DNA of 64,000 bases, taken from the IMG/VR virus record IMGVR_UViG_3300032086_002413, positions 1 to 64,000 of that record. One strand, written 5' to 3'. Origin of the DNA: a virus. The notes under the pieces were generated by a model. It saw only the letters and a list, made by a program, of their open reading frames with translations. It did no database searches and had not been told where the DNA came from. Shown here in pieces: positions 47,256 to 58,224 of this stretch; position 1 is the first letter of the stretch; each line of letters begins with the position of its first letter. The position numbers were made by a program, and so were the translations under genes.

Positions 47256-47285
47256 CAAATATAGTTATTTAAGATCAAGTGACAA
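47256..47285 (-). promoter_or_regulatory. Bacteroidota-type promoter for leftward arm
   Basis: On the leftward strand a TTG (-33 element, 47283-47285) lies 19 bases upstream of TATATTTG (47256-47263), matching the Bacteroidota consensus TTTG-N17-23-TAnnTTTG. The first gene begins 18 bases downstream of the -7 box. It is the only such match I found at the head of the left arm, supporting both host class and a single main start of the virion operon. Confidence 0.7.
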
Positions 47286-47365: not shown

Positions 47366-47505
47366 CGAGGCAGGTAAGGCTACCCTAGGAAAACTCAACT
47401 TTTTAGCCCAGCCCCCACTTGCTCTCACACAGGCTAGAAAACACAAGATGCCTGGCCTGGCCCCACAACCCTATGTAATTTGTACTGATACGGGTATGTA
47501 TAGCA

Positions 47506-47538
47506 TACGAGGCAGTTTCATTTTAATTGTGATATTAT
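47506..47538 (+). promoter_or_regulatory. bipartite early promoter-like motif, copy 1
   Basis: TACGA (47506-47510) is followed, after 18 bases, by GTGATATTAT (47529-47538). It lies 42 bases upstream of the start at 47581. The upstream TGTATAGCA and the following GCAGTTTC match copy 2 closely. See copies at 47893, 48542, 48959, 49856, 50431, 50624, 53160 and 57761. Confidence 0.65.
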
Positions 47539-47580
47539 ACTTGATTATTAACTTAAATTTATAACTTAAAATTTATTATT

Positions 47581-47829
47581 ATGAGTGCAAAAACTAAAGA
47601 AGTAAAAGTAGTGAAAAGATTTGTGTTATCTAAGAATAACATCAAAGACAAAAACCTAGTGTTATCATTCACTACAGCCAAAGGCGAAACAGTAGAGTAT
47701 TCACCTTCAAAAGTGTACGAACAGTTAAAAGATAAGTTCGAACCTATGCCCTGCTGGAACAAGTATGGTAACTACACTAACAGACTTAATCTACCAAAGT
47801 TTGTACGTGAGCTTGACACACTCGTCTAA
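47581..47829 (+). CDS. small early protein, paralogue 1
   Basis: This 82-residue, lysine-rich, beta/alpha protein (KEVKVVKRFVLSKNNIKDK near the N-terminus, then PSKVYEQLKDKFEPMPCW, then GNYTN) is about 80% identical to the next gene. It is the first rightward gene, transcribed from motif copy 1 and ended by a strong terminator. Compact size and likely high early expression suggest a host-directed or regulatory role; I recognise no family. Confidence 0.7.
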   Translation: MSAKTKEVKVVKRFVLSKNNIKDKNLVLSFTTAKGETVEYSPSKVYEQLKDKFEPMPCWNKYGNYTNRLNLPKFVRELDTLV

Positions 47830-47840
47830 GCAATCAATCA

Positions 47841-47868
47841 AGGGCACCTTCGGGTGTCCTTTTTTTTT
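47841..47868 (+). terminator. intrinsic terminator after paralogue 1
   Basis: AGGGCACC (47841-47848), a TTCG tetraloop and GGTGTCCT (47853-47860) form an 8-bp stem with one G-U pair, followed by an 8-9 T run to 47868. It is a textbook intrinsic terminator separating paralogue 1 from its duplicate. Confidence 0.92.
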
Positions 47869-47892
47869 GACTATATACTATGTGTATAGCAA

Positions 47893-47925
47893 TACGAGGC
47901 ACTTTGCTTTTAGTTGTGATATTAT
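47893..47925 (+). promoter_or_regulatory. bipartite early promoter-like motif, copy 2
   Basis: TACGA (47893-47897), 18 bases, GTGATATTAT (47916-47925), 40 bases before the start at 47966. The surrounding 80 bases, including the untranslated leader, resemble copy 1, so promoter and gene were duplicated together. Confidence 0.65.
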
Positions 47926-47965
47926 ATTCGATTATTAACTTATATATTAACTTAAATTTATTATT

Positions 47966-48211
47966 ATGTCAAAAAGTAAAGAAGTAAAAGTAGTAAAGCG
48001 ATTTGTACTAAGTAAAAACAACATCAAAGACAAGTCACTTGTATTAGAGTACACAAACAAGAAAGGTGAAACATTTCAATACAAACCTTCAAAGGTGTAT
48101 GAGCAACTAAAGGATAAGTTCGAAGCAATGCCTTGTTGGGAAAAGTATGGTAATTACACTAACTCAGTTAACTTACCAAAGTTTGTTAGAGAATTAAAAA
48201 CAATAGTTTAA
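47966..48211 (+). CDS. small early protein, paralogue 2
   Basis: This 81-residue tandem duplicate of the previous gene keeps KEVKVVKRFVLSKNNIKDK and PSKVYEQLKDKF and differs mainly in residues 28-41 and near the C-terminus. It has its own copy of the early motif. It is not followed directly by a terminator; the downstream 53-aa gene ends before one, so the two are probably one transcript. Conservation after duplication argues that both are functional. Confidence 0.7.
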   Translation: MSKSKEVKVVKRFVLSKNNIKDKSLVLEYTNKKGETFQYKPSKVYEQLKDKFEAMPCWEKYGNYTNSVNLPKFVRELKTIV

Positions 48212-48276
48212 CTTAAACCAAATGACCTAAGCAAGTCAATAAACTGCTTTATTAATTAACCTTAAAATTAAACATT

Positions 48277-48438
48277 ATGCATTTAAAATTCGAGTACGAG
48301 ATTTGGTTTTTTGAAGGTCAAGAGCCTTTATATATAACCACAGAGAAAAACACATTACAAGAAATTATAAAATCCTTAGATGAACTTGATTTACCATCTG
48401 AAGATATAGAATCTATTAAAACCACAAAACTAAAATAA
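48277..48438 (+). CDS. 53-aa acidic protein
   Basis: ATG 48277 to TAA 48438 encodes MHLKFEYEIWFFEGQEPLYI and an acidic helical C-terminus (LQEIIKSLDELDLPSEDIES). It ends 20 bases before an intrinsic terminator, so it closes the transcript that starts at motif copy 2. The codon choice resembles its neighbours. No family recognised. Confidence 0.6.
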   Translation: MHLKFEYEIWFFEGQEPLYITTEKNTLQEIIKSLDELDLPSEDIESIKTTKLK

Positions 48439-48458
48439 ATTAAATATTTCACTAACAA

Positions 48459-48487
48459 AGGCTGCCTATATGGTGGCCTTTTTTTTT
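48459..48487 (+). terminator. intrinsic terminator
   Basis: AGGCTGCC (48459-48466), loop TATAT, and GGTGGCCT (48472-48479) form an 8-bp stem with two G-U type pairs, followed by a T run to 48487. It closes the transcript of paralogue 2 and the 53-aa gene. Confidence 0.88.
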
Positions 48488-48541
48488 AAATGTATAGCAA
48501 GGTGAGGTAAAGAAGAGTCGCTACGGCTAAGTGTATAGCAA

Positions 48542-48575
48542 TACGAAGCACTTCGATATGACTTAGTGATATTAT
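48542..48575 (+). promoter_or_regulatory. bipartite early promoter-like motif, copy 3
   Basis: TACGA (48542-48546), 19 bases, GTGATATTAT (48566-48575). Preceding TGTATAGCAA also appears at 48490-48499, suggesting a partial duplication. The transcript would run through the second regulatory repeat (48613-48698) into the gene at 48743, leaving a leader of about 160 bases. The interval 48439-48742 otherwise holds only the terminator above and this repeat; an 11-codon ATG frame at 48603 is too weak to call. Confidence 0.6.
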
Positions 48576-48612
48576 ATATGAATTTAAAACACAGAGTATA
48601 ACATGAAAAACT

Positions 48613-48698
48613 ATGACATTAGCCCCTTACTATATTAATCTTAGTACCTATTGTCACACTTTTTATAAATACACTGACTTTGAGGTATTGTATTATAC
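48613..48698. repeat. regulatory repeat, copy B
   Basis: The block begins ATGACATTAGCC, has a TATTGTCAC at 48649-48657 closing an imperfect dyad, continues ACTTTTTATA and ends GGTATTGTATTATACCC. It aligns over about 86 bases with 47279-47365 in the same orientation. It lies within the predicted leader of the 67-aa gene, so it could act as an operator or an RNA control element. Confidence 0.6.
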
Positions 48699-48742
48699 CC
48701 TAACCATATTTTTAACCAATAAACTATTAATCCACCTTAACT

Positions 48743-48946
48743 ATGGAAATTACTAGACTAAAACAAGAGATCGGAGAAGTAACTATAGAACACTTCCAAA
48801 CATTAGAAGACAACATTGAAGATGGTGTTCAGACAGGTACTAACTATGTAATGATAGAAGATGCCTATGGTAACCAAATAACCATTGAAGATGGCATGGT
48901 AAAACATGTTACACTTAACAATGAAGAATATCATAACCACAACTAA
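48743..48946 (+). CDS. small acidic protein (67 aa)
   Basis: This 67-residue protein (MEITRLKQEIGEVTIEHFQT, then DDAYGNQITIEDG-like acidic strands: EDAYGNQITIEDGMVKHV) is acidic with a helix followed by beta-hairpin character. It is preceded by the long leader from motif copy 3. No family recognised; the small size, acidity and early position are typical of phage host-takeover factors, which is inference only. Confidence 0.6.
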   Translation: MEITRLKQEIGEVTIEHFQTLEDNIEDGVQTGTNYVMIEDAYGNQITIEDGMVKHVTLNNEEYHNHN

Positions 48947-48958
48947 CTTTAGACATTA

Positions 48959-48991
48959 TTCGATTCACTTTTAAACAACCTAGTGATATTA
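48959..48991 (+). promoter_or_regulatory. bipartite early promoter-like motif, copy 4
   Basis: TTCGA (48959-48963) followed by TTCACTTTT, then 19 bases from CGA to GTGATATTA (48983-48991), 33 bases before the start at 49025. Confidence 0.62.
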
Positions 48992-49024
48992 ACTACAAAT
49001 AATTTAACCACTAAATAAAATAAC

Positions 49025-49219
49025 ATGTCACACTTAAAAACTATTATGACTATCGAGTACAATGCAAGCACAAATGTTTACATCTGCTCAGACGGCACTT
49101 TCACAGGTGAGTACGATTCTTTACAAGAAATATTCGACATCGATGACTCAGATTACTTATCAAACCTCGAAAAAGAATGCCAAGAATTTAGACAAGAATA
49201 TAATAACCAAAACAACTAA
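49025..49219 (+). CDS. small acidic protein (64 aa)
   Basis: The 64-residue product has N-terminal beta-type sequence (TIEYNASTNVYICSDGTF) and a very acidic helical C-terminus (EIFDIDDSDYLSNLEKECQE). Its start lies 33 bases after motif copy 4 and it is followed 11 bases later by another small gene. No recognised family. Confidence 0.6.
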   Translation: MSHLKTIMTIEYNASTNVYICSDGTFTGEYDSLQEIFDIDDSDYLSNLEKECQEFRQEYNNQNN

Positions 49220-49230
49220 AAACTACAACT

Positions 49231-49440
49231 ATGAAGATTAGATTTTCCTCAGTAACCAAACGCCCTTACATTAAAATTAACAATACTAGACATTACGGTT
49301 TTCGCATCGATCTTTTACCAAAAAGGTTTGCAGATGTAAACTCAAAAGAGCCAATAACATCTTGGTTCAACCACAAAGGCTTTACATTTATGTCAGAGCA
49401 AAACTGGTTAGACATGTTCGGTAATATAACAATACATTAA
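49231..49440 (+). CDS. small protein (69 aa)
   Basis: This 69-residue basic protein starts MKIRFSSVTKRPYIKINNTR and ends with WLDMFGNITIH. It contrasts with the acidic proteins around it. It probably belongs to the transcript from motif copy 4. No recognised family. Confidence 0.6.
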   Translation: MKIRFSSVTKRPYIKINNTRHYGFRIDLLPKRFADVNSKEPITSWFNHKGFTFMSEQNWLDMFGNITIH

Positions 49441-49441
49441 A

Positions 49442-49621
49442 ATGGAACAGCAGTTACATAACACAGCTAGATACTACATGATGGTAATGGCTCAACAGTA
49501 CCCAAAAGTAGATCCTTACAAGTATTCACTAGATGAGTTCATTAATGAGTACACATTAAAACTAACAATGCAGGATCTTTATTTAGGTCAAAGTATATTA
49601 AACTTATTCGAAAAGCTATGA
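49442..49621 (+). CDS. small protein (59 aa)
   Basis: ATG 49442 lies 1 base after the previous stop; the TGA at 49619-49621 overlaps the next start. The product is helical (MEQQLHNTARYYMMVMAQQY, then LDEFINEYTLKLTMQDLYLG). The tight spacing with both neighbours supports translation. Function unknown. Confidence 0.62.
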   Translation: MEQQLHNTARYYMMVMAQQYPKVDPYKYSLDEFINEYTLKLTMQDLYLGQSILNLFEKL

Positions 49622-49734
49622 AAAAAGAAGATATGAATTTAGATTTCACTTATGAGCAATTAAGAGAATGGAAAGAAGGTGATTTAATTCACTTAATACT
49701 AGAGCTACAAGATATAATTATAAAAGAGCTATAA
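49618..49734 (+). CDS. very small protein (38 aa)
   Basis: MKKEDMNLDFTYEQLREWKE then GDLIHLILELQDIIIKEL: an amphipathic helical peptide translationally coupled to the upstream gene by ATGA. Too short for family assignment, but its coupling and acidic, helical content fit the surrounding genes. Confidence 0.5.
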   Translation: MKKEDMNLDFTYEQLREWKEGDLIHLILELQDIIIKEL

Positions 49735-49737
49735 TAT

Positions 49738-49875
49738 ATGGACAAGCATTTATTAATACTAGCACTTGAAACACTACTCGAACAGTTAGAGTGTAGTGAT
49801 AGAGACACAGAAACTCTCGAAAGACAAGCAAGAGTTCAAGAACAGATCGACATTATTCGAATCGCTTTAAAATAA
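49738..49875 (+). CDS. very small helical protein (45 aa)
   Basis: MDKHLLILALETLLEQLECS then DRDTETLERQARVQEQIDII: one long amphipathic helix. Starts 3 bases after the previous stop. The gene end overlaps the upstream part of motif copy 5 (49856). Function unknown. Confidence 0.5.
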   Translation: MDKHLLILALETLLEQLECSDRDTETLERQARVQEQIDIIRIALK

Positions 49876-49889
49876 CCCAGTGATATTAT
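49856..49889 (+). promoter_or_regulatory. bipartite early promoter-like motif, copy 5
   Basis: TTCGA (49856-49860), then ATCGCTTTA, 19 bases to GTGATATTAT (49880-49889), only 15 bases before the ATG at 49905, so the leader is very short. Confidence 0.6.
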
Positions 49890-49904
49890 TATAAATTAAT
49901 TATT

Positions 49905-50117
49905 ATGAGTATATGTAAATGTGGTAGTAGTATACCAAAAGGTCGTACAGATCTCGGTTATAAAGTATGTGTCAATTGCAGTGATGTAGAAGTTTACGGC
50001 TGTGTGCCTGTAACTAATCACAAAACAGGCAATGCTATACACGTTTTGCCGCGATCACAAGCAGCAGTAATTAACAAGGCATTTCGCCGCAAAGGTTATG
50101 GCACATGTCTAAGATAA
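49905..50117 (+). CDS. zinc-ribbon-like small protein (70 aa)
   Basis: MSICKCGSSIPKGRTDLGYK carries a C-x-C pair, followed by VCVNCSD (C-x-x-C), so four cysteines could bind one zinc. C-terminal half has THKTGN-like NHKTGNAIHVLPRSQAA and a basic FRRKGYG. The pattern resembles small zinc-binding proteins in other phages that may bind DNA or RNA polymerase. The gene overlaps the next by 13 bases. Confidence 0.6.
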   Translation: MSICKCGSSIPKGRTDLGYKVCVNCSDVEVYGCVPVTNHKTGNAIHVLPRSQAAVINKAFRRKGYGTCLR

Positions 50118-50311
50118 ATAAATACCATTGGAATAAAGATACGTTAGATTACTTCCATGATTTGTACAACGAGTCAGAAGATAAATTCTACAATAAGATA
50201 ATAGAGTTTGTTAAATACGAGTGTGATCTTGAAGATGGCGAAACATACGAAGATCTTATGGTAGACTTAATAGATCAAGCAAAAAATTATAAACAGGATA
50301 GTTTAAAATAG
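50105..50311 (+). CDS. small acidic protein (68 aa)
   Basis: MSKINKYHWNKDTLDYFHDL then acidic stretch DLEDGETYEDLMVDLIDQA. It starts in the end of the zinc-ribbon gene (13-base overlap, different frame) and ends at 50311 before the structured RNA region. Helical acidic protein with no recognised family. Confidence 0.6.
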   Translation: MSKINKYHWNKDTLDYFHDLYNESEDKFYNKIIEFVKYECDLEDGETYEDLMVDLIDQAKNYKQDSLK

Positions 50312-50411
50312 GTAAAACACTTGTCATCGATTGAGCACGAGCACTCAAGTAGCGCTTACGAGTGTGAGAGGTTAGATGACAGAGATGCAGGTTCGAGGCC
50401 TGCTCCTGAAG
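50291..50411 (+). ncRNA. tRNA-like structured RNA A
   Basis: GCAGG-TTCGAGG-CCTGC (50387-50403) is a perfect T-arm: 5-bp stem and a TTCGA loop. The 3' strand TCCTG (50404-50408) can pair with CAGGA at 50293-50297, followed by TA and a D-arm-like hairpin GTTT-AAAATAGGTA-AAAC (50300-50317) with a GG in the loop. An anticodon-like stem ACTTG (50318-50322)/CAAGT (50346-50350) encloses 23 bases. Total length 121 instead of about 75, and the 5' end overlaps the upstream gene's stop. I cannot build a standard cloverleaf, so this may be a tRNA remnant, tRNA with extra sequence, or tRNA mimic. Confidence 0.4.
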
Positions 50412-50430
50412 AAATAGTTTGAAGACATAA

Positions 50431-50460
50431 ATCGAGGTGCACTTATTAAAGTAGTGATAA
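50431..50460 (+). promoter_or_regulatory. bipartite early promoter-like motif, copy 6
   Basis: ATCGA (50431-50435), then GGTGCACTTA, 18 bases from CGA to GTGATAA (50454-50460). It lies upstream of RNA B rather than of a protein gene; variant in the last two positions of the -10-like half. Confidence 0.5.
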
Positions 50461-50486
50461 CACGGCGTAGTTCTGATAACATAACA

Positions 50487-50606
50487 AAGCGAGTGCTGTC
50501 GTGGCGACCGGAGTGGGTTTTTTAGACTGCATCAGTTAATGGTGAGTCTTAATTTTTGACACATACGTTAGGTTAATAAACAGAGGTTCGAATCCTCGCT
50601 CGCTTT
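50487..50606 (+). ncRNA. tRNA-like structured RNA B
   Basis: AAGCGAG (50487-50493) pairs perfectly with CTCGCTT (50599-50605), as an acceptor stem would. Just inside the 3' strand is a T-arm: AGAGG-TTCGAAT-CCTCG (50582-50598), four of five pairs. The total, about 120 bases, is too long for a normal tRNA. Internal structure includes GTCG-TGG-CGAC (50498-50508) and a hairpin with U-run (50524-50557). It lies 24 bases after motif copy 6, so it may be its own transcript. No plausible anticodon arm of standard length was found. Confidence 0.42.
50524..50557 (+). terminator. possible terminator inside RNA B
   Basis: AGACT, a bulged G, CATC, loop AGTTAAT, GGTG and AGTCT (50524-50549) form a nine-pair stem followed by TAATTTTT. 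If active, the RNA from motif copy 6 would end near 50557 and the downstream T-arm would not be in it; this is a competing reading of the region. Confidence 0.45.
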
Positions 50607-50623
50607 CAACTATATAAACTATA

Positions 50624-50657
50624 TACGATACAAGTATATAAAAGTCAGTGATATTAA
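50624..50657 (+). promoter_or_regulatory. bipartite early promoter-like motif, copy 7
   Basis: TACGA (50624-50628), 19 bases, GTGATATTAA (50648-50657), 18 bases upstream of the start at 50675. Confidence 0.62.
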
Positions 50658-50674
50658 TTTTAAACAATAACAAC

Positions 50675-50800
50675 ATGAATCATTTAACTATTTACACATC
50701 AGATTTTATTACAGGTCTTGCTTATGCAATACCATTTACTTTGTGCATTGTCGCTTTTGCTATACACCGCGCAAATAAACTTTTAAAAGAATTATCATGA
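50675..50800 (+). CDS. small membrane protein (41 aa)
   Basis: ATG 50675 to TGA 50800. MNHLTIYTSDFITGLAYAIP then FTLCIVAFAIHRANKLLKEL: one membrane segment (about 11-31), with a basic cytoplasmic tail. It follows motif copy 7 closely and overlaps the next start (ATGA). A single-pass inner-membrane peptide expressed early could be an exclusion or host-membrane factor. Not tested. Confidence 0.58.
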   Translation: MNHLTIYTSDFITGLAYAIPFTLCIVAFAIHRANKLLKELS

Positions 50801-51018
50801 AGATTATACTAGAAGCAACAGACATTACACAAGATTTTATTATTGATCTTTACAAAGCTAAAGTACGTATAATAGATGCTGTAGAATCACCTAACGGTTG
50901 GATCGACATTACACTAGAAGGTAGCGAGATAAATTTATTACAAGTATATGCTATTCACTGGTGTGAGCCAGCAGTTAAAAACTGCGTAGAAGACTTTAAA
51001 CATCAAATATTTAAATAA
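50797..51018 (+). CDS. small protein (73 aa)
   Basis: MKIILEATDITQDFIIDLYK then beta-hairpin-like NGWIDITLEGSEINLLQVY, C-terminal helix. Looks like a small alpha/beta domain. Translationally coupled to the membrane-protein gene. No family recognised. Confidence 0.58.
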   Translation: MKIILEATDITQDFIIDLYKAKVRIIDAVESPNGWIDITLEGSEINLLQVYAIHWCEPAVKNCVEDFKHQIFK

Positions 51019-51022
51019 ACAT

Positions 51023-51178
51023 ATGGCAACAACAAAAGAACAAGCAGCTTGGCTGCATCAGACCTTAGACATATTCGCTGAAGAGTTTGGCGAGTTTGGC
51101 TACAATACTTGTGATGAAAATTTGCAGAAGTATATATTACAAGAAATAATTGAAAAAGAATTAATAACCCTTAAATAA
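51023..51178 (+). CDS. very small helical protein (51 aa)
   Basis: ATG 51023 to TAA 51178: MATTKEQAAWLHQTLDIFAE then EFGEFGYNTCDENLQKYILQ. Acidic, helical. Starts 4 bases after the preceding stop. Function unknown. Confidence 0.5.
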   Translation: MATTKEQAAWLHQTLDIFAEEFGEFGYNTCDENLQKYILQEIIEKELITLK

Positions 51179-51186
51179 CAACAACT

Positions 51187-51402
51187 ATGACTAAAATGAC
51201 AAACTTACAATTTATCGAAGAGCTATGTAAGCTACTAGGTAATGACAATTTTTTCTACCGTGACTTATATGATCAAGATGATCTATTTGAAATGCAAGAC
51301 AGTGTAGCTAAACTACTAGTAGAACAAACTAATGCAGGTCTTGGCATTGCAAAATACATGGTAAAACAATTTCCTAATGTATTTAAAACTGAAGAAGTAT
51401 GA
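51187..51402 (+). CDS. small acidic protein (71 aa)
   Basis: MTKMTNLQFIEELCKLLGND then helical acidic sequence (DLYDQDDLFEMQDSVAKLLV). Overlaps the next start by 4 bases (ATGA). No recognised family. Confidence 0.58.
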   Translation: MTKMTNLQFIEELCKLLGNDNFFYRDLYDQDDLFEMQDSVAKLLVEQTNAGLGIAKYMVKQFPNVFKTEEV

Positions 51403-51791
51403 TGTATATAGATCAAGACGAGTTTGATAAAGAAAATAAAAAAGATATGAGTTCACCAAACGCAACACTTAACGCACGTGAGTGGGTACTAATGCACTAC
51501 GATGTTACTATACACACCGAGTGGAAAGAGTTTTCTGACTATGTGTATACTATTGAACCTTATTGTACTGCAGATGGCTATGATGTCTACGTGGCTAAAT
51601 GGGCTAATGAGTCTATACTTATCGAAGAAAACGTATTCTACTATGATCACGACTTCGAACAATTACTAGCAGATATGCTACCTAATTTCAACAGAGGCGA
51701 TAAAATATATATATCTGAAGACTGTTTAGATCTAGACACCTGTGAGTGGGAAGAATGGAAACAACAAATACAAGAAGAAGAATATGAGTAA
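51399..51791 (+). CDS. acidic protein (130 aa)
   Basis: MMYIDQDEFDKENKKDMSSP then beta-rich middle (YTIEPYCTADGYDVYVAKWA) and Trp/Glu-rich C-terminus (WEEWKQQIQEEEYE). Very acidic, with many Tyr/Trp residues. Such acidic early proteins can mimic DNA in anti-restriction phage proteins, but no specific motif supports this here. Overlaps the next gene by 8 bases. Confidence 0.55.
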   Translation: MMYIDQDEFDKENKKDMSSPNATLNAREWVLMHYDVTIHTEWKEFSDYVYTIEPYCTADGYDVYVAKWANESILIEENVFYYDHDFEQLLADMLPNFNRGDKIYISEDCLDLDTCEWEEWKQQIQEEEYE

Positions 51792-52014
51792 TATGAGCTA
51801 CTGCATGTGGGAAAACACAAGCAAAGATCTCTACGATGCTAGAGAAAAAATAGAGTTATATCTATATATGTCACAAGAAGACAGAAACGAGAATTGTCCA
51901 TCAACTTACGAAGTATCTGCTTTAAAATCATTACTAGACGAAGCACGTATGATAGTTGAAATGGAAGAAGATATAGAAGATTTATATAAAGATTTAATTA
52001 AAATATCAAGATGA
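51784..52014 (+). CDS. small protein (76 aa)
   Basis: I start at the ATG at 51784 (MSNMSYCMWENTSKDLYDAR), which gives an 8-base overlap with the upstream gene; a second start at 51793 is equally possible. The product is acidic and helical and its last base overlaps the next start. No family recognised. Confidence 0.55.
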   Translation: MSNMSYCMWENTSKDLYDAREKIELYLYMSQEDRNENCPSTYEVSALKSLLDEARMIVEMEEDIEDLYKDLIKISR

Positions 52015-52151
52015 CAGAACAAGAGAATAAAATATACTGGAAAGGCTTTTACGAAGGTTTAAAGCACGCACGCGATTGGTGTAAAAGCAACGAGACTTAT
52101 ATACAAGAAGAAATAGACGAACTAAATGAAGAATATAACTATGAAGATTAG
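52011..52151 (+). CDS. very small protein (46 aa)
   Basis: ATG 52011 to TAG 52151: MTEQENKIYWKGFYEGLKHA then RDWCKSNETYIQEEIDELNE. Mixed aromatic helix with an acidic tail. Coupled to both neighbours by short overlaps. Function unknown. Confidence 0.5.
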   Translation: MTEQENKIYWKGFYEGLKHARDWCKSNETYIQEEIDELNEEYNYED

Positions 52152-52257
52152 TAACTGTTGTGGCGCCGGTGATTTGGTTTACGAAGACTACGGTATATGC
52201 CCAGATTGTAAAGAACATTGTGAATTTGAAGACGAAGACTTATGGCAAGAAGATTAG
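52141..52257 (+). CDS. very small Cys-rich protein (38 aa)
   Basis: ATG 52141 to TAG 52257: MKISNCCGAGDLVYEDYGIC followed by PDCKEHCEFEDEDLWQED. Cys6-Cys7 and CxxC-x-x-x-C suggest a zinc-binding knuckle. It overlaps the 46-aa gene by 11 bases and the next by 16 bases, both in other frames. It resembles short rubredoxin-like or zinc-ribbon fragments in phage genomes. Confidence 0.5.
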   Translation: MKISNCCGAGDLVYEDYGICPDCKEHCEFEDEDLWQED

Positions 52258-52463
52258 TAAAAAATAGAATAACAGACATAACTGCTGAGTTTGACAGCAT
52301 AAGAGCATTTGGTGATTTTATGTTTCCATATTTAAGCAAAGATCCTCACGACAACTGGTTTTATCAAAACTTAAGCAATATATCTCAAGAAGAATATATA
52401 AGGTCTGAAAACAAAGATGATTTAATTTTTGAGTTTCACGAATACATTATAAGCAAATTATGA
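52242..52463 (+). CDS. small protein (73 aa)
   Basis: MARRLVKNRITDITAEFDSI then DFMFPYLSKDPHDNWFYQNL. A basic N-terminus is followed by an aromatic-rich helix and acidic C-terminus. Overlaps the next start (ATGA). No recognised family. Confidence 0.55.
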   Translation: MARRLVKNRITDITAEFDSIRAFGDFMFPYLSKDPHDNWFYQNLSNISQEEYIRSENKDDLIFEFHEYIISKL

Positions 52464-52804
52464 ATATTATAATAAAACATAATGGTGACAAATATGAGCT
52501 AGAGTGGCAGTATAAAGACAAATGTTTTACTACTGAACACGAAACTAGAGAACAAGCTCTACTGCAAGTAGAAGAAAACAACAAGAATAGAGACATATAC
52601 GAAGAGAAACAAAAAATACTCAAGAAAATGGGTGAACTTGGTAAATCTGATTATATGCGAACTATGCGTAATGCTATAGAAAAAATGCTTGATCCTGTTT
52701 ACAGACAACGCGAAGCTTCTTTCCGTTGTGCGACAGCAAATTCTATGGCAGGCTATGAAAAGTATGAATTAAAACAAGTAACAAATAAAATAGTAGAAAA
52801 ATGA
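52460..52804 (+). CDS. small protein with coiled helices (114 aa)
   Basis: MNIIIKHNGDKYELEWQYKD forms beta-type N-terminus, then Glu/Lys/Asn-rich helices (EEKQKILKKMGELGKSDYMR). Overlaps the next start by 4 bases. No recognised family; the charge pattern suggests a soluble regulatory or partner-binding protein. Confidence 0.55.
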   Translation: MNIIIKHNGDKYELEWQYKDKCFTTEHETREQALLQVEENNKNRDIYEEKQKILKKMGELGKSDYMRTMRNAIEKMLDPVYRQREASFRCATANSMAGYEKYELKQVTNKIVEK

Positions 52805-53187
52805 AACAACATGAAGCATTTGAATTCTTGCGCAATCTGCCTTATGATCGTAAACCATGTAGTATTGATGATGTACATAGTTATGTAATATTCAATCATT
52901 ACTCTGTTGCTATACAAGCTATGATCAAGCGTTTGCCACAGGTAGATATAAAAAGGTTTATTGTAAAAGAAGTAAACAAAGATGTTGATTGGTTTACAGA
53001 CGCTTTTGAAATGTATAACAAAGTTGATGCTGCAGGTAGATATATATATGGCCCTCAGTTTTGGCTTACTAACCAAAATAATGATTGGTTCTTGATAAAC
53101 AATGAAGGTTATAACTATGCCAGATACGTAGTTAAATTACTAGGTTTCGTCAATGTAGATACGACGCAACATTGCGTGCCTGTGTGA
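52801..53187 (+). CDS. hypothetical protein (128 aa)
   Basis: This 128-residue alpha/beta protein begins MKQHEAFEFLRNLPYDRKPC and includes HYSVAIQAMIKRLPQVDIKR and VNKDVDWFTDAFEMYNKVDA, with a C-terminal aromatic strand pair. Its 3' end contains the TACGA half of motif copy 8 and the stop TGA is part of GTGATAA. No family recognised. Confidence 0.55.
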   Translation: MKQHEAFEFLRNLPYDRKPCSIDDVHSYVIFNHYSVAIQAMIKRLPQVDIKRFIVKEVNKDVDWFTDAFEMYNKVDAAGRYIYGPQFWLTNQNNDWFLINNEGYNYARYVVKLLGFVNVDTTQHCVPV

Positions 53188-53190
53188 TAA
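53160..53190 (+). promoter_or_regulatory. bipartite early promoter-like motif, copy 8
   Basis: TACGA (53160-53164), 19 bases, GTGATAA (53184-53190), overlapping the end of the upstream gene. It is followed by RNA C rather than a protein gene; the -10-like half is a variant. Confidence 0.5.
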
Positions 53191-53230
53191 TAATATTGTC
53201 CGTGTATTCATAATGTTTAAGTTTAATCCT

Positions 53231-53298
53231 GTTTGCAAGCCTGGTGGCATATATTATTTACGGACGTAATATAGAAGGTTCGATTCCTTCAAGCAGAC
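53231..53298 (+). ncRNA. tRNA-like structured RNA C
   Basis: GAAGG-TTCGATT-CCTTC (53274-53290) is a perfect T-arm. Two bases later GCAGAC (53293-53298) pairs with GTTTGC (53231-53236), one wobble. Between lie GCC-TGGT-GGC (53239-53248) and TTAcGGACG (53258-53266). The 68-base span is shorter than a tRNA, the anticodon stem is not resolved, and GTCCGT (53198-53203) can alternatively pair with ACGGAC (53260-53265). Promoter motif copy 8 lies just upstream. With A and B this is a third T-arm in a non-coding gap. Confidence 0.4.
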
Positions 53299-53316
53299 TT
53301 AATAAAATAAAATAAA

Positions 53317-53526
53317 ATGCAAATATCAAAACTCACAAAAAAATACTTCTGTGGTTTACACGAGACTAGAGATCTTGACGAGATGCTAGATCTTGTAGAA
53401 TCGTGGCTAGATGTACACTATGAACATTACGATATATCGTTGAAACAATGGATATACAACAAAGGAACATATGTTAACGAATTTTATGATGCAATAGAAT
53501 ATGGGACGTACAAAAAAACTATTTAA
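53317..53526 (+). CDS. small protein (69 aa)
   Basis: MQISKLTKKYFCGLHETRDL then acidic helix DEMLDLVESWLDVHYEHYDI and a C-terminal aromatic stretch. Starts downstream of RNA C. No recognised family. Confidence 0.58.
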   Translation: MQISKLTKKYFCGLHETRDLDEMLDLVESWLDVHYEHYDISLKQWIYNKGTYVNEFYDAIEYGTYKKTI

Positions 53527-53530
53527 TCAC

Positions 53531-53641
53531 ATGAGAGAATCTGAACTGCACAAACAACTACATTTTGAAGAGCAAGAATATTTACACTATGTACGATACA
53601 AGCAGATAGAAGATCGTGATAATAAAAATAAACAACAATGA
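53531..53641 (+). CDS. very small protein (36 aa)
   Basis: ATG 53531 to TGA 53641: MRESELHKQLHFEEQEYLHY then VRYKQIEDRDNKNKQQ. Charged, helical. Its stop overlaps the next start (ATGA), which supports translation. Function unknown. Confidence 0.48.
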   Translation: MRESELHKQLHFEEQEYLHYVRYKQIEDRDNKNKQQ

Positions 53642-53850
53642 ATATTACAGCACAAGTAATCGAGTATGAAACAGGTATGATGAACGAGGTAGACGTAGTC
53701 AACTTTTTTGCGCATCTTATCAGAACTAAGTTAGCGTGGCAATTACAAGGTCATTACGGCCGTACCGCTAGCTCATTTATTCAAGATGGTCTTATAGACG
53801 AGTTTGGAAATTTAACACCTAAAACAATTGACATTTTAAACGCTTACTAA
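53638..53850 (+). CDS. small protein (70 aa)
   Basis: MNITAQVIEYETGMMNEVDV then FAHLIRTKLAWQLQGHYGRT. Looks like a small helical domain with a His-x-x-Arg-rich centre. Coupled to the previous gene. No family recognised. Confidence 0.58.
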   Translation: MNITAQVIEYETGMMNEVDVVNFFAHLIRTKLAWQLQGHYGRTASSFIQDGLIDEFGNLTPKTIDILNAY

Positions 53851-53852
53851 TT

Positions 53853-54068
53853 ATGACACAAGAACAATTAAACAATTACTTTGAGATCAACGCCAAAGTA
53901 TTACGCATGACAAACCTGATCAATAGCTTTGAGCTATCATACTTTCAAGAAAAAATGCAAGAGAAAATTATTGCACCATTACTTGATGATGGCTTTCAGC
54001 AAGACGACGTAGAATTATTTTTTCAAGTATTAATAACAGCTGCCTTTGCAGACCAAAAAGTAGAATAA
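53853..54068 (+). CDS. small helical protein (71 aa)
   Basis: MTQEQLNNYFEINAKVLRMT then acidic helix EKIIAPLLDDGFQQDDVELF. Probably all helical. Two bases separate it from the preceding stop. No recognised family. Confidence 0.58.
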   Translation: MTQEQLNNYFEINAKVLRMTNLINSFELSYFQEKMQEKIIAPLLDDGFQQDDVELFFQVLITAAFADQKVE

Positions 54069-54072
54069 CAAC

Positions 54073-54339
54073 ATGACAACAACAGAATTACCAAAGTGGT
54101 TCGATGGCCACGTAGGCACAAAACACCAAACAGTTCACAATCCTTATTCAGGTCAAAAATACAAGCTCAATCCTGAAGAGTTAGCTATGTATGATTATCT
54201 GATGGGTTTACAATTTATTATAGAACGCAAAGGCGGACTGCTTAATCCTAAAACTGCTAAGTGGCAAAAAGAAATGCGCAAAGGCTTAGATTGGTTTCGT
54301 AAAGCTAATGCTGAAGCTTATATGGTGTTATTAGACTAA
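54073..54339 (+). CDS. small conserved phage protein (88 aa)
   Basis: MTTTELPKWFDGHVGTKHQT, then NPYSGQKYKLNPEELAMYDY and LLNPKTAKWQKEMRKGLDWF: a globular helical protein with a conserved-looking Asn-Pro-Tyr-Ser-Gly turn. Similar proteins occur in marine phage replication regions, but I cannot name a function. Its last base is the first of the next gene. Confidence 0.6.
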   Translation: MTTTELPKWFDGHVGTKHQTVHNPYSGQKYKLNPEELAMYDYLMGLQFIIERKGGLLNPKTAKWQKEMRKGLDWFRKANAEAYMVLLD

Positions 54340-54503
54340 TGACCGAAAAACAACGTAAATATATAATAACAAAGTTCTGTGGCGGCGGCGCTAATATGCC
54401 GCCAGCTAAGAACATAGAGATCGAATTTGTAGAAGGCTACGGCTTTGGCGAAAAAGATCATTTTGGCAAAAAATCAACTTCAATAATTAAACTTAAAAAA
54501 TGA
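54339..54503 (+). CDS. small protein (54 aa)
   Basis: ATG 54339 to TGA 54503: MTEKQRKYIITKFCGGGANM then glycine-containing beta strands (EIEFVEGYGFGEKDHFGKK). Overlaps the previous stop (TAATG) and the next start (ATGA). Function unknown. Confidence 0.52.
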   Translation: MTEKQRKYIITKFCGGGANMPPAKNIEIEFVEGYGFGEKDHFGKKSTSIIKLKK

Positions 54504-54649
54504 AAGAAATATTTTCAGCAGGTGTAATGATCAATAGTATATACATAACACCTTCACTAGTAGTACTTTACGAAAAAAATAATTACTTAATATTCTCTAT
54601 AAGATTTATAAAATATTTTATAGACATAACTGTATTTGACAAAGAGTAA
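54500..54649 (+). CDS. small hydrophobic protein (49 aa)
   Basis: ATG 54500 to TAA 54649: MKEIFSAGVMINSIYITPSL, then VVLYEKNNYLIFSIRFIKYF. Rich in Ile, Tyr, Phe; weakly membrane-like. Its stop shares a base with the start of the GP88-like gene. Function unknown. Confidence 0.5.
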   Translation: MKEIFSAGVMINSIYITPSLVVLYEKNNYLIFSIRFIKYFIDITVFDKE

Positions 54650-55266
54650 TGAGACTGTTAACACAAAATACAAAGTTAAAGCGGACAAGCAAAATTGAAG
54701 GTGAACGCGTACTCAATTTTAGTATTCCCGCTTACAAGTCAGCTACGGGTAAAATTACTTGCCCGTATGCTGGTCCTTGTAAAGAGTTCTGTTACGCTAA
54801 ACAGAAATTTTACAAAATGCCTAACGTTAAAAAATCTCACGAGCAAAAGTTGCTATACACACTTCGCCCAGACTTTGCAGAGCTTATGATAGCCGAGCTA
54901 AAGCTAGAAAGACCCACATATGTACGTATACATGACGGCGGTGACTTTTACAGTAAAGAGTATATACACAAGTGGTTTGATGTTATGAATACTATGAAAG
55001 ATATTAAGTTTTATGCTTATACTAATAGTATACGCTTCTTTGAAGCTGATGATGTAAAACCTTTTATACCAGATAATTTTGATCTAATATACTCAACATC
55101 CGGTGTCGATGCAGATCGCATTGATTATAAACGCCACAGGCATGCTAAAATATTTGATAACAAATTAACACTTTGGGAATCAGGCTACGTATCTGCTTCA
55201 AAATCAGATCTTAAAGCAACAAGATGGTTTACAAAAACAAATAAAATAGGTTTAATATTTCACTAA
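54649..55266 (+). CDS. GP88-like family protein
   Basis: This 205-residue protein carries ITCPYAGPCKEFCYAKQKFY, with Cys38, Cys44 and Cys48, a metal- or iron-sulphur-type cluster motif found in phage GP88-like proteins. A later VRIHDGGDFYSKEYIHKWFD matches a second conserved block of this family. The family function is not established; a C-x5-C-x3-C motif and a barrel-like beta-alpha pattern hint at a radical-SAM-like fold. It begins the second, better-recognised part of the right arm. Confidence 0.65.
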   Translation: MRLLTQNTKLKRTSKIEGERVLNFSIPAYKSATGKITCPYAGPCKEFCYAKQKFYKMPNVKKSHEQKLLYTLRPDFAELMIAELKLERPTYVRIHDGGDFYSKEYIHKWFDVMNTMKDIKFYAYTNSIRFFEADDVKPFIPDNFDLIYSTSGVDADRIDYKRHRHAKIFDNKLTLWESGYVSASKSDLKATRWFTKTNKIGLIFH

Positions 55267-55706
55267 TGATAGAATTAAAATTACTAGTTGATCTAGTACA
55301 AAAAGAGTTTAACATATTAGATATAAGCTCAAAAAAACGAGGTAGAGATAGAGTACACGCAAGATGGGTTTATTTCAAACTTGCAAGAACATATACTCGT
55401 CATTCTTATTCTCTTATAGGCAAAACAGTAAATAGAGATCATGCTACTGTGCTACATGGTTTAAAATATATCGATGTTGATATGAAAGACAAGCGCTTTT
55501 ATTACTTGTTAGAGATATATAACAAAATAGAAAAGTTTTTAATAACAGGCCAAGAGATATTACATGATGAGAATTTAGTAGATTTACGTAGCTTACTTGA
55601 CAGAATAAAGAAACTAGAAAAAAGAGTAAGCGTGCTAGAATATGAAAAAAGTCAACATAATAAGGTGGGACAAGATCAAAACGCAATGGCAAATGTTACA
55701 AGCTAG
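55266..55706 (+). CDS. stand-alone DnaA domain IV-like DNA-binding protein
   Basis: This 146-residue protein has an N-terminal domain matching the C-terminal, origin-binding domain of DnaA: SKKRGRDRVHARWVYFKLAR (about 22-41), then SLIGKTVNRDHATVLHGL (about 49-66). RDHATVLHG is the DnaA signature for binding DnaA boxes. No AAA+ ATPase domain is present. The C-terminus is a basic coiled coil (KLEKRVSVLEYEKSQ). It likely binds DnaA-box-like sites in phage or host DNA, either starting phage replication or interfering with the host's. Overlaps next gene by 65 bases. Confidence 0.75.
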   Translation: MIELKLLVDLVQKEFNILDISSKKRGRDRVHARWVYFKLARTYTRHSYSLIGKTVNRDHATVLHGLKYIDVDMKDKRFYYLLEIYNKIEKFLITGQEILHDENLVDLRSLLDRIKKLEKRVSVLEYEKSQHNKVGQDQNAMANVTS

Positions 55707-55971
55707 TGCAATAAAAATAATAATAGAAGAAACTACAAACAACGGTATGGATTTTCACACAACACACACACAGAGAGATATATTTGGTAATGTATCATAT
55801 TCATTTGAATCAGAGCATGGACAGTCGAAATCTAAAGCAGAACTTATAATTGAACGTGTACAGCAATTGCGTGTAGATGAAATAGCGGCTGTTGAAAAAG
55901 AAGATTACGAGAAAGCAGCAGAGATAAAAACTAAAATAGATATTTTAATTAATTTATATAAGAAAATATAA
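55642..55971 (+). CDS. small protein with UVR-motif-like C-terminus
   Basis: This 109-residue protein starts inside the preceding gene (65-base overlap; a later ATG near 55693 is possible). Its C-terminus EKEDYEKAAEIKTKIDIL resembles the UVR motif used by UvrB, UvrC and Clp proteins for protein contacts. The N-terminal part is a basic helix followed by polar sequence. It could be an adaptor to a host repair or protease system. Weak evidence. Confidence 0.5.
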   Translation: MKKVNIIRWDKIKTQWQMLQASAIKIIIEETTNNGMDFHTTHTQRDIFGNVSYSFESEHGQSKSKAELIIERVQQLRVDEIAAVEKEDYEKAAEIKTKIDILINLYKKI

Positions 55972-56201
55972 TGAATATAGCGAAAGAAAAAATAACAGTA
56001 AATTCAAGCGCAATTATTTCTATACTATATAGTTATGATGAAAAAGAACTAACTGTTCAGTTTGTTAATAACAAAAGGTATTTGTTCAAAGAGGTGAACA
56101 TTAACGATTTTATAAGTCTTAAATATGCTGAAAGTATAGGGAAATACTTTAATCGTCACATAAAAAACAACTACAACTATGAACTATTACAACAACATTA
56201 A
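55971..56201 (+). CDS. KTSC-domain protein
   Basis: This 76-residue protein fits the KTSC domain: VNSSAIISILYSYDEKELTV, NNKRYLFKEVNINDFISLKY and an AESIGKYFNRHIKNNY end. The domain is named for a Lys-Thr-Ser-Cys type motif; here the first block has Ser-Ser. Its function is unknown, though it is often near nuclease or replication genes. Overlaps next by 23 bases. Confidence 0.6.
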   Translation: MNIAKEKITVNSSAIISILYSYDEKELTVQFVNNKRYLFKEVNINDFISLKYAESIGKYFNRHIKNNYNYELLQQH

Positions 56202-56406
56202 AGACAAATTAACCACAAGAAAAGCAAAACACATAAACTACGTAGTAAAAGAAATATTTGATTTAAGATACTCTATCATAAACATATCATTAGCTTTCGG
56301 GAGAGATAAAATGACTGAAGAAACTTTTCATAGAAAGATAAAAAACAGAGCATCATTATTAGTAAAAAGAGAAAGATACAGAAGGCGTTTGCGTACTTGG
56401 ATGTGA
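56179..56406 (+). CDS. small basic protein (75 aa)
   Basis: MNYYNNIKDKLTTRKAKHIN then a helical part with a strongly basic C-terminus (LLVKRERYRRRLRTWM). It resembles a small nucleic-acid-binding protein. It overlaps both neighbours (23 and 10 bases) in other frames. No recognised family. Confidence 0.55.
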   Translation: MNYYNNIKDKLTTRKAKHINYVVKEIFDLRYSIINISLAFGRDKMTEETFHRKIKNRASLLVKRERYRRRLRTWM

Positions 56407-57050
56407 GAAATTTTAAATACATAGAGAGAAACAAAATAATTTACAGGAGAGATCCAATAACAGATATACCAGATGTAGTAACAAAAGATTATGTTTATTT
56501 TATAAATGGAACTTATCAGTGTTATGATCTATTTAGATCAAAAGCATTAATCACAACACACAGGTCATTAGTTTGGCATTTAACTGTTTTGTGGTATCTA
56601 AATCCTAACATGACCCTTGATCAGTTTGTAGATTTATCAGAAAATATAACAAAAAAAGAAAATAATTTTATTACATTTACTATTAACAAGAAAGCTCTCA
56701 ATGACATTATCAATGTTGTTTACTCGCAAGATCTTGATAGGCCACCAAAAAACAAGTTAAGAAAAATAATATTTAAAGACACTTGTTTGCTTAGCGTCAA
56801 CGATAAATTAAAAATAGTTGGCTCTCTAATTGGTAAACAAAAGAAAATAGAAGAACAAGATATATACGAAGCTATGATCTTGATAAATGATAAGAGAGAA
56901 AAAATAACGATAAGCAAACTAAGTAAAGAGCTTAACGTAACAACTAGAACAATTTACAGAAACATAAACGAACAATTAAAACAGGAAAAAACCATAATGA
57001 ACGAAAGCTTAAATGAAAAAGTACAACGTACAAAATTACATACGTTATAA
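56397..57050 (+). CDS. helix-turn-helix DNA-binding protein
   Basis: This 217-residue protein has an N-terminal domain of unknown fold with aromatic residues (VYFINGTYQCYDLFRSKALI). Its C-terminus carries KITISKLSKELNVTTRTIYR (about 170-189), a helix-turn-helix in which the second helix (TTRTIYRNIN) would recognise DNA. This architecture resembles replication initiator or regulatory proteins. It overlaps the sigma-factor gene by 38 bases, so the two are likely made together. Confidence 0.6.
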   Translation: MDVRNFKYIERNKIIYRRDPITDIPDVVTKDYVYFINGTYQCYDLFRSKALITTHRSLVWHLTVLWYLNPNMTLDQFVDLSENITKKENNFITFTINKKALNDIINVVYSQDLDRPPKNKLRKIIFKDTCLLSVNDKLKIVGSLIGKQKKIEEQDIYEAMILINDKREKITISKLSKELNVTTRTIYRNINEQLKQEKTIMNESLNEKVQRTKLHTL

Positions 57051-57759
57051 AAAAGACTTAGAACAAGCAACAAAAATTAATGATGCAAAATTTGAAGATC
57101 AGGATTTAGTTGTAAAGTATCTACCTTTAGTAGAATCAATAGCAAGAAGATTCTCTACAGAAGGTAAATATATTGGTATATTAACAATAAATGATTTGAT
57201 ACAAGAAGGAAGTATAGGTTTGATAAACGGGTTAAAAAATGTAGACCAAGAAATATTAATGAGCTCTATTGATCCAGATGCAACATTACATAGCTTTCTT
57301 AGCAAAAGAATAAAAGGAACCATTAGAAGAGCTATAAACACATATAGAAACAACATGAGAATACCTGAGTCAGAGATGAACAGGTTAAAAAAAAAATCTA
57401 AAGAAACAGATTCAGATGAAGAAATAATAAATCAATTTCTACAAGCTATTTTCTTGCAACTAGATAACACAAATGAAAATGGAGAAAGCTATGCTAATAA
57501 TGTAGCTTATGAAGAAGACGAATATTTGCACAATGATGAGTTAATTAAAATGATAAACCTTTTTTTAAATGACAAAGAGCAAATAGTGGTAAAACGTAGT
57601 TTTGGAATAGACTGCGATAAAGCTAAAGCAAAGGAAATAGCTGTAGAAATAGGTTTAAAAGGCGAAAACTCACAAGTTAGAGTTTCAGAAATAAAAAGAG
57701 CCGCTATATTTAAACTTTGTAACAACTTAAATAAAAATCAATTTATAAAGTTTATGTAA
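57013..57759 (+). CDS. phage sigma-70-family sigma factor
   Basis: This 248-residue protein has region 2-like sequence from about 30 to 116: LVVKYLPLVESIARRF, then INDLIQEGSIGLINGLKN (core-binding region 2.1-2.2) and SFLSKRIKGTIRRAINTYRN (2.3-2.4). Region 4-like sequence lies around 180-240 (KAKAKEIAVEIG, then VRVSEIKRAAIFKLCNNL). Regions 1 and 3 are reduced. It should redirect host RNA polymerase to phage promoters. The bipartite motif upstream of several rightward genes is a candidate target; copy 9 lies immediately downstream of this gene. Confidence 0.78.
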   Translation: MKKYNVQNYIRYKKDLEQATKINDAKFEDQDLVVKYLPLVESIARRFSTEGKYIGILTINDLIQEGSIGLINGLKNVDQEILMSSIDPDATLHSFLSKRIKGTIRRAINTYRNNMRIPESEMNRLKKKSKETDSDEEIINQFLQAIFLQLDNTNENGESYANNVAYEEDEYLHNDELIKMINLFLNDKEQIVVKRSFGIDCDKAKAKEIAVEIGLKGENSQVRVSEIKRAAIFKLCNNLNKNQFIKFM

Positions 57760-57760
57760 A

Positions 57761-57790
57761 TACGACGCGACAACAACAACACAGTGATAA
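57761..57790 (+). promoter_or_regulatory. bipartite early promoter-like motif, copy 9
   Basis: TACGA (57761-57765), 18 bases, GTGATAATC (57784-57792), 22-24 bases before the start at 57814. It is the only motif copy in the DNA-metabolism block and could boost the recombination and replication genes. Confidence 0.5.
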
Positions 57791-57813
57791 TCTATTAAAT
57801 TAAATTAAATACA

Positions 57814-58224
57814 ATGAGCACAAACAAAGCAGACATTCTAAACACTTTGTACAAGAAGTACAAACTAACTAAAGAAGACACATTCAAAAGTCCACAAGGA
57901 TGGACTATTATTACACGATCAGGTATCGATAAGATACAAGCTGAAGCTAAAATCGATATTGAATACAATGTTATCGAGTATACCCCAGGTAAATCAGCTG
58001 CTGTAAAAGCTATAACAGTATGGAATGATCGTCCACTAGAAACATTTGGCGAGGCCAACGAAAAGAACTGTAGACAAAGCTATGTGTTAGCTATGGCTGA
58101 GAAGCGTGCTATGTCACGTGTTGTTCTTAAGCTTACTGGTTTTTACGCTTTAGGTGTCTTCGGACAAGACGAATCAGAAGATTTTGTAGATTCAAGCAAA
58201 TATGTTAAGAAACAAACTTTATAA
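57814..58224 (+). CDS. putative single-strand annealing / recombination protein
   Basis: This 136-residue protein has conserved-looking KSPQGWTIITRSGIDKIQAE and the C-terminal block EANEKNCRQSYVLAMAEKRA followed by MSRVVLKLTGFYALGVFGQD. The AMAEKRAxxRxxLKLxG pattern resembles phage Rad52/Erf-like annealing proteins. The next gene is a RecE-like exonuclease, and an SSB-like protein follows, making an exonuclease-annealing-SSB set. The annealing role is inferred mainly from this context. Confidence 0.58.
   Translation: MSTNKADILNTLYKKYKLTKEDTFKSPQGWTIITRSGIDKIQAEAKIDIEYNVIEYTPGKSAAVKAITVWNDRPLETFGEANEKNCRQSYVLAMAEKRAMSRVVLKLTGFYALGVFGQDESEDFVDSSKYVKKQTL

Follow-up and report, generated by a model that had tools for sequence, protein, structure and literature searches.

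Bacteriophages that redirect the host core RNA polymerase with sigma factors of their own include SPO1 (gp28) and T4 (gp55), whose promoter sequences and hosts are unrelated to those considered here, and which are likened to the present system by general description, not by sequence. In the phiEco32-like phage 7-11 the sigma factor SaPh711_gp47 is proven to bind host core polymerase, and the late promoters are bipartite (GTAAtg-(16)-aCTA), with about eight sites across the genome of this phage of an enterobacterial host (PMC8948821); the phiEco32 factor phi32_gp36 lacks region 4 and serves middle and late promoters with a single box, tAATGTAtA (PMC8948821). Here we describe a 64,000-nucleotide window (bases 1-64000 of the 67,429-base IMG/VR virus record IMGVR_UViG_3300032086_002413) that contains a putative sigma factor gene (57013-57759) and ten copies of a bipartite promoter-like element, and we consider it likely that these ten sites are promoters for host core RNA polymerase carrying the phage-encoded sigma factor.

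The system would resemble that of phage 7-11 in combining a phage-encoded sigma factor and host core polymerase with a bipartite promoter at several sites spread on the genome, but the element here has the form TACGA/TACAA-N18 to N20-GATAWT, lies in an arm of replication and small genes, and probably operates in a member of the Bacteroidota. As in phiEco32, the sigma factor would bring host polymerase to phage genes, although the window sigma has a region 4 and its promoters have a -35 box; the motif shared by the wider family matches neither the phiEco32 nor the 7-11 consensus. Primary sigma-ABfr promoters of the Bacteroidota, recognized by what is probably the host polymerase type of this phage group, have TTTG around -33 and TAnnTTTG at -7 (PMC7366714), and the phage element is nearer the classical TATAAT type. 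No earlier description of this sigma/promoter system was found among the open papers searched, most subscription papers falling outside the search.

Nine of the sites were listed in the original prediction, and all nine are present at those positions on the + strand; a tenth, which had been overlooked, begins at 53592 (TACGATACAAGCAGATAGAAGATC-GTGATAATAA). The claim of a fixed spacing holds, with 18 bases between CGA and GTGATA in four sites and 19 in six. The pattern WWCGA-N18/19-GTGATA occurs ten times on the + strand of the window and never on the - strand; in 200 windows produced by Markov resampling, the count over both strands averages 0.15 and never exceeds 2. At every other gap from 0 to 44 there is at most one WWCGA/GTGATA pair per strand. 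A position-weight-matrix scan of the window, as originally proposed, scores the ten sites at 20.2-35.5 bits and the next-best place on either strand at 14.8, a gap that is circular because the matrix was built from the same sites. All ten are confined to 47.5-57.8 kb of the window.

The sites were also said to stand just before a gene or a tRNA-like RNA, and they do: eight lie 20-50 nucleotides (nt, counted from the -12 G) ahead of the start of an open reading frame (ORF), and two precede tRNA-like RNAs. Putative promoters 1 (47506-47537, with its predicted -12 G at 47531) and 2 (47893-47924), both TACGA-N18-GTGATATTA, are followed by ORFs 47581-47829 and 47966-48211, and promoter 3 (48542-48574; TACGA-N19-GTGATATTA) by an ATG at 48613, 45 nt after the -12 G. 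Promoters 4 (48959-48991) and 5 (49856-49888) share the form TTCGA-N19-GTGATATTA and precede ORFs 49025-49219 and 49905-50117 respectively. Promoter 6 (50431-50462; ATCGA-N18-GTGATAACA), the weakest at 20 bits, lies before a tRNA-like RNA; promoter 7 (50624-50656; TACGA-N19-GTGATATTA) before ORF 50675-50800; and promoter 8 (53160-53192; TACGA-N19-GTGATAATA) before a tRNA-like RNA and ORF 53317-53526. Promoter 9 (53592-53624; TACGA-N19-GTGATAATA), the closest site upstream of the sigma gene, precedes ORF 53638-53850, whose ATG is 20 nt after the -12 G, and promoter 10 (57761-57792; TACGA-N18-GTGATAATC) comes right after the sigma stop codon and before ORF 57814-58224 and the replication genes. 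Intrinsic terminator-like hairpins with T runs are present on the + strand between units 1 and 2 (47840-47861) and units 2 and 3 (48457-48481), where they close the units that precede promoters 2 and 3 and give the order promoter, gene, terminator, promoter. The adjacent small genes 47581-47829 and 47966-48211, each with its own promoter and terminator, look paralogous by eye, and neither has a PHROG match.

Two parts of the original description stand only in part. The CACTTT-like run said to follow CGA in most copies is clear in about half of the sites and not in the remainder. The element was also reported to match neither the Bacteroidota nor the classical sigma-70 consensus: it is indeed unlike the former, and none of the ten window sites has TAnnTTTG as its -10 box, but the statement is half right for the latter, since the downstream box is of the GATAWT -10 type. 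This box departs from TATAAT at -12, and copies with TATTA depart also at -8; the hexamer GATAWT, with A-11 and T-7, is found in nine of the ten sites, and the site at 50431 has GATAAC. A -35 box is represented in the window by TACGA, at N18/19 from GTGATA.

The element extends well beyond this genome. The window sigma protein was used to collect 77 IMG/VR loci that carry relatives of its gene, and when these were first scanned with the window's own matrix many good matches appeared only in the nearest locus, L090, whose sigma is 60% identical. An unsupervised count of spaced word pairs in the 77 loci, with no motif supplied, yields one dominant element on the sigma strand, with ACAA-N20-GATAA at 324 to 7 and GATAA/ATAAT also recovered, and the family consensus is TTACAAAc-n-AAATACGA-N8-gGATAATATAA. 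The scan of relatives by weight matrix called for in the original prediction finds the motif 364 times on the sigma strand and once on the opposite strand, and for a fixed family pattern the counts on the two strands are 373 and 3. Every one of the 360 strongest matches has 20 bases between TACAA and GATA, under a matrix that carries a small score penalty on other gaps, and the invariance of GATAWT is partly by construction because the seed required it. Sites in the relatives are a median of 33 nt from the next ATG (189 nt for random positions), and 80% of them lie 10-100 nt before an ATG compared to 24% of random positions. Aligned to the family, the window form has TACGA in place of TACAA and GATAWTA in place of GATAATA, and by this alignment the window motif is a local form of a predicted family-wide promoter. 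A loose-spacing version of the window form searched in viral contigs gives single matches nearly throughout, the L090 contig alone having several confirmed sites; a generic sigma70 scan shows no excess over shuffles, and word-pair counting for a late-arm motif returns only A-rich codon-like noise.

With GATAWT set at -12 to -7, the upstream box spans about -38 to -31, i.e. the -35 position. A-11 and T-7, the two bases captured by sigma region 2 in known structures, are retained in the family motif, and base -12 is G, not T. The downstream box is thus, as judged from its sequence, a sigma70-class -10 (GATAWT) with T-12 changed to G, which places the element within the sigma70 world.

The gene at 57013-57759 (+) encodes a 248-residue protein with regions 2, 3.0, and 4, matching phrog_351 (E 6e-18) and Pfam Sigma70_r2 above its cut-off. 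A profile of 26 of these sigma sequences compared with the PDB finds SigA at E 1.5e-11, covering regions 2 to 3.0 and then region 4 separately, and the best Foldseek matches of an AlphaFold model (mean pLDDT 73) are sigma subunits, with low TM-scores and loose domain placement. By homology in both region 2 and region 4 the product is a predicted sigma70-family factor. The WWIRQAITR segment of sigma70, in which Q437 and T440 read base -12, corresponds to KRIKGAIRR in the phage sigma family; both residues are replaced, which fits the change of base -12 to G. Residues that read the -35 in sigma70 are replaced as well. The sigmas of the window and L090 share PESEM (for PEHKL) in region 3.0 and SQVRV (for the usual YVRV) in region 4.2, and every site collected from the two has T at -13, with TACGA replacing TACAA; this match of sigma changes with promoter changes is suggestive only, because it comes from a single clade. 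The phage collection, of 50,697 records, includes none with a gene for a closely related sigma.

The sigma gene and the motif occur together. Of the 27 contigs of at least 55 kb that were selected solely by the DNA motif, 25 have the sigma gene, and the two others end just ahead of its place; as gene order in relatives puts sigma beyond their ends, these are explained as broken contigs. Conversely, of the 57 loci that were selected by sigma and include 5 kb or more upstream, 55 have at least three sites. One sigma locus without the motif (L103) has upstream DNA of opposite A/T skew and is therefore probably rearranged or chimeric. Neither sigma nor motif is found in MW202828, elemoE (a record labelled partial), or phi38:1, each searched whole, and phi46:3 and Gundel_1 have no sigma over their whole length and no motif in their first 50 kb. 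This co-occurrence supports a link between sigma and motif.

We propose that the -10 box, G(-12)ATAWT(-7)A, would be recognized and melted by sigma region 2, and that region 4 would recognize the bases at about -37 to -33 (TACGA in the window, TACAA in most relatives), with the spacer tolerating 1 bp of play. The predicted transcription starts are about 12 nt downstream of the -12 G, and leaders would be short. Jointly, the promoters would drive the rightward arm, including the small genes of unknown function, the tRNA-like RNAs, the sigma operon (through the site at 53592), and the replication genes (through the site at 57761). With its own operon read in this way, the sigma factor would reinforce its own supply.

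A helix-turn-helix protein gene (56397-57050, +; HTH_11 at residues 160-191) overlaps the sigma gene in the window, and homologues are present in 73 of the 78 loci searched (window included), abutting or overlapping the sigma gene in most; the window protein has no tblastn match in the phage collection. The protein could be a co-regulator or partner of sigma. A spacer box, AATACGA, is present in most relatives, although the window does not have it at that place, and it would be a natural target of the helix-turn-helix protein. In one subclade (L117, L151, and L164) the promoter class itself has been switched at matching places with the same downstream sequence. L117 and L164 have a second class, AAAAACGAY-N8-TATAATA, lacking a -35 box, in about the first 3 kb, and most of their later units have GTTGCAG-N20-GATAATA; L151 has the second class (AAAAACGAC/TATAATA) at all eleven of its sites, and its sigma region 4.2 is rebuilt. 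The sigma reading frame of L164 is broken. It is possible, although we hold this only tentatively, that these phages define a new sigma subfamily with a long three-box promoter (-35, the AATACGA spacer box, and a G-12 -10), in which the helix-turn-helix protein reads the spacer box and promoter classes are switched between close relatives along with sigma changes, entirely in L151 and partly in L117 and L164.

The sites could instead be promoters for the host holoenzyme, with a primary or alternative host sigma, and the phage sigma would then serve elsewhere, e.g. in the late arm. Early phage genes are commonly transcribed by host polymerase, and the motif extends over the entire rightward arm, the sigma operon included, and that operon must be transcribed before any phage sigma exists. 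We regard this as improbable nonetheless, given that the element accompanies the sigma gene from genome to genome, that related Flavobacteriia phages without sigma lack it, and that it departs from TTTG / TAnnTTTG, the primary consensus of the Bacteroidota (PMC7366714), the host phylum itself being a deduction. Recognition by a phage-encoded RNA polymerase, either virion-borne or made early, would accord with the crAss-like relation noted below, as crAss-like phages carry their own polymerase, and with the presence of giant virion proteins of unassigned function. A scan of the large proteins and many of the smaller ones encoded in the window plus the adjoining 3.4 kb gives no polymerase match, however, and the giant virion proteins examined have no convincing DxDxD catalytic motif; two boxes, 1-bp spacer play, and a TATAAT-like -10 suit a sigma factor better than a single-subunit polymerase, and we consider this explanation very improbable. 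That the sites are operators, or replication or packaging sites, is also very improbable: their repetition and conservation, and the coupling of a helix-turn-helix gene to that of sigma, would suit such a role, but their single orientation, position mostly 20-50 nt before starts, -10-like box, and the terminators between units are features of promoters.

The original reading of a promoter-like element, with phage sigma and host polymerase as the suggested test, is thus supported by conservation on the sigma strand only, position before starts, terminators, and co-occurrence with sigma, and the virus probably redirects host RNA polymerase to its own genes. The sites, their strand and position, their family-wide conservation, the sigma homology, and the co-occurrence are read directly from the genomes, but binding, start points, timing, and the use of host core polymerase are all deduced from them. 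Several points weigh against this reading. Co-occurrence could reflect common descent instead of a functional link, and because descent alone could give the same pattern its support falls short of proof. L117 and L164 have two promoter classes, yet one sigma gene is found per locus, and the T-12/G-12 difference has no counterpart in region 2.4 of the L117 sigma. Nor does any host-type promoter that might yield the first sigma stand out ahead of the sigma operon: TAnnTTTG forms no clear set in the window and does not build up near the first promoter. A lone host-type candidate at 47263 (47258-47285, -; TATATTTG, with TTG 18 bases upstream) lies just before the leftward arm, and TAnnTTTG occurs 79 times in late-arm intergenic DNA of the relatives, versus 30, 35, and 51 for three permuted patterns.

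The genome is podovirus-like, with virion genes in the leftward arm, including the terminase (24451-26661), the portal (22083-24449), giant virion proteins, and GroEL, and small and replication genes in the rightward arm, including the sigma factor, an exonuclease, a primase/helicase, and thymidylate synthase, with ribonucleotide reductase just beyond the window. Terminase identity to the nearest named records is 63% for MW202828, 45% for Flavobacterium elemo phages, and 32-38% for Cellulophaga and Tenacibaculum phages. A 2591-residue virion protein (9053-16828, -) includes a Crassvirales muzzle C-terminal domain, a hint that the group is distantly linked to crAss-like phages. From these terminase relatives and the muzzle domain, the host is probably a Bacteroidota bacterium. 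Eight contigs from metagenome-assembled genomes carry mixed labels (Aliivibrio, Lewinella, Halieaceae, Flavobacteriaceae, and others); these are probably misbinned phage and are uninformative about the host.

Three tRNA-like RNAs are encoded on the + strand of the rightward arm, and ARAGORN calls none of them. One is a cloverleaf at 53232-53298 downstream of promoter 8 (fold z -2.3; Rfam tRNA-Sec at 20.5 bits with a cut-off of 47), another is about 120 nt long at 50487-50607 downstream of promoter 6, with an 8-bp closing stem and a T-arm (fold z -0.8), and a third at 50294-50408 has a T-arm-like hairpin with a closing stem. Some relatives have an ordinary tRNA-Gln, -Met, or -Arg in the same arm. 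A polar octamer is also over-represented, with 203 TGCTATAC and 95 GTATAGCA in 1.3 Mb of relatives, ranking top of 1,680 8-mers of the same composition (mean 17). In the window TGCTATAC (+) is at 4349, 8209, 16348, 23987, 33922, 41669, 50033, 50758, 52908, 54851, and 61764, and the octamer is one-directional except for four copies, GTATAGCA (+) at 47498, 47884, 48492, and 48533, beside promoters 1-3 near the arm divergence.

The phages with this sigma and motif are bacterial viruses, uncultured and mostly marine, and make up a large group; besides the sigma gene, their genomes have about ten predicted transcription-start signals that match it, all on one arm. If the system works as proposed, it is a candidate orthogonal transcription tool for the Bacteroidota, whose promoters differ from the sigma70 type. 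The more than 360 sites and 77 sigma relatives offer natural variants for studying how sigma and promoter change together, including at -12. The motif is a signal by which the transcription units of the group may be annotated from sequence alone, and with its sigma factor it offers a concrete model of gene control for a widespread group of uncultured phages.

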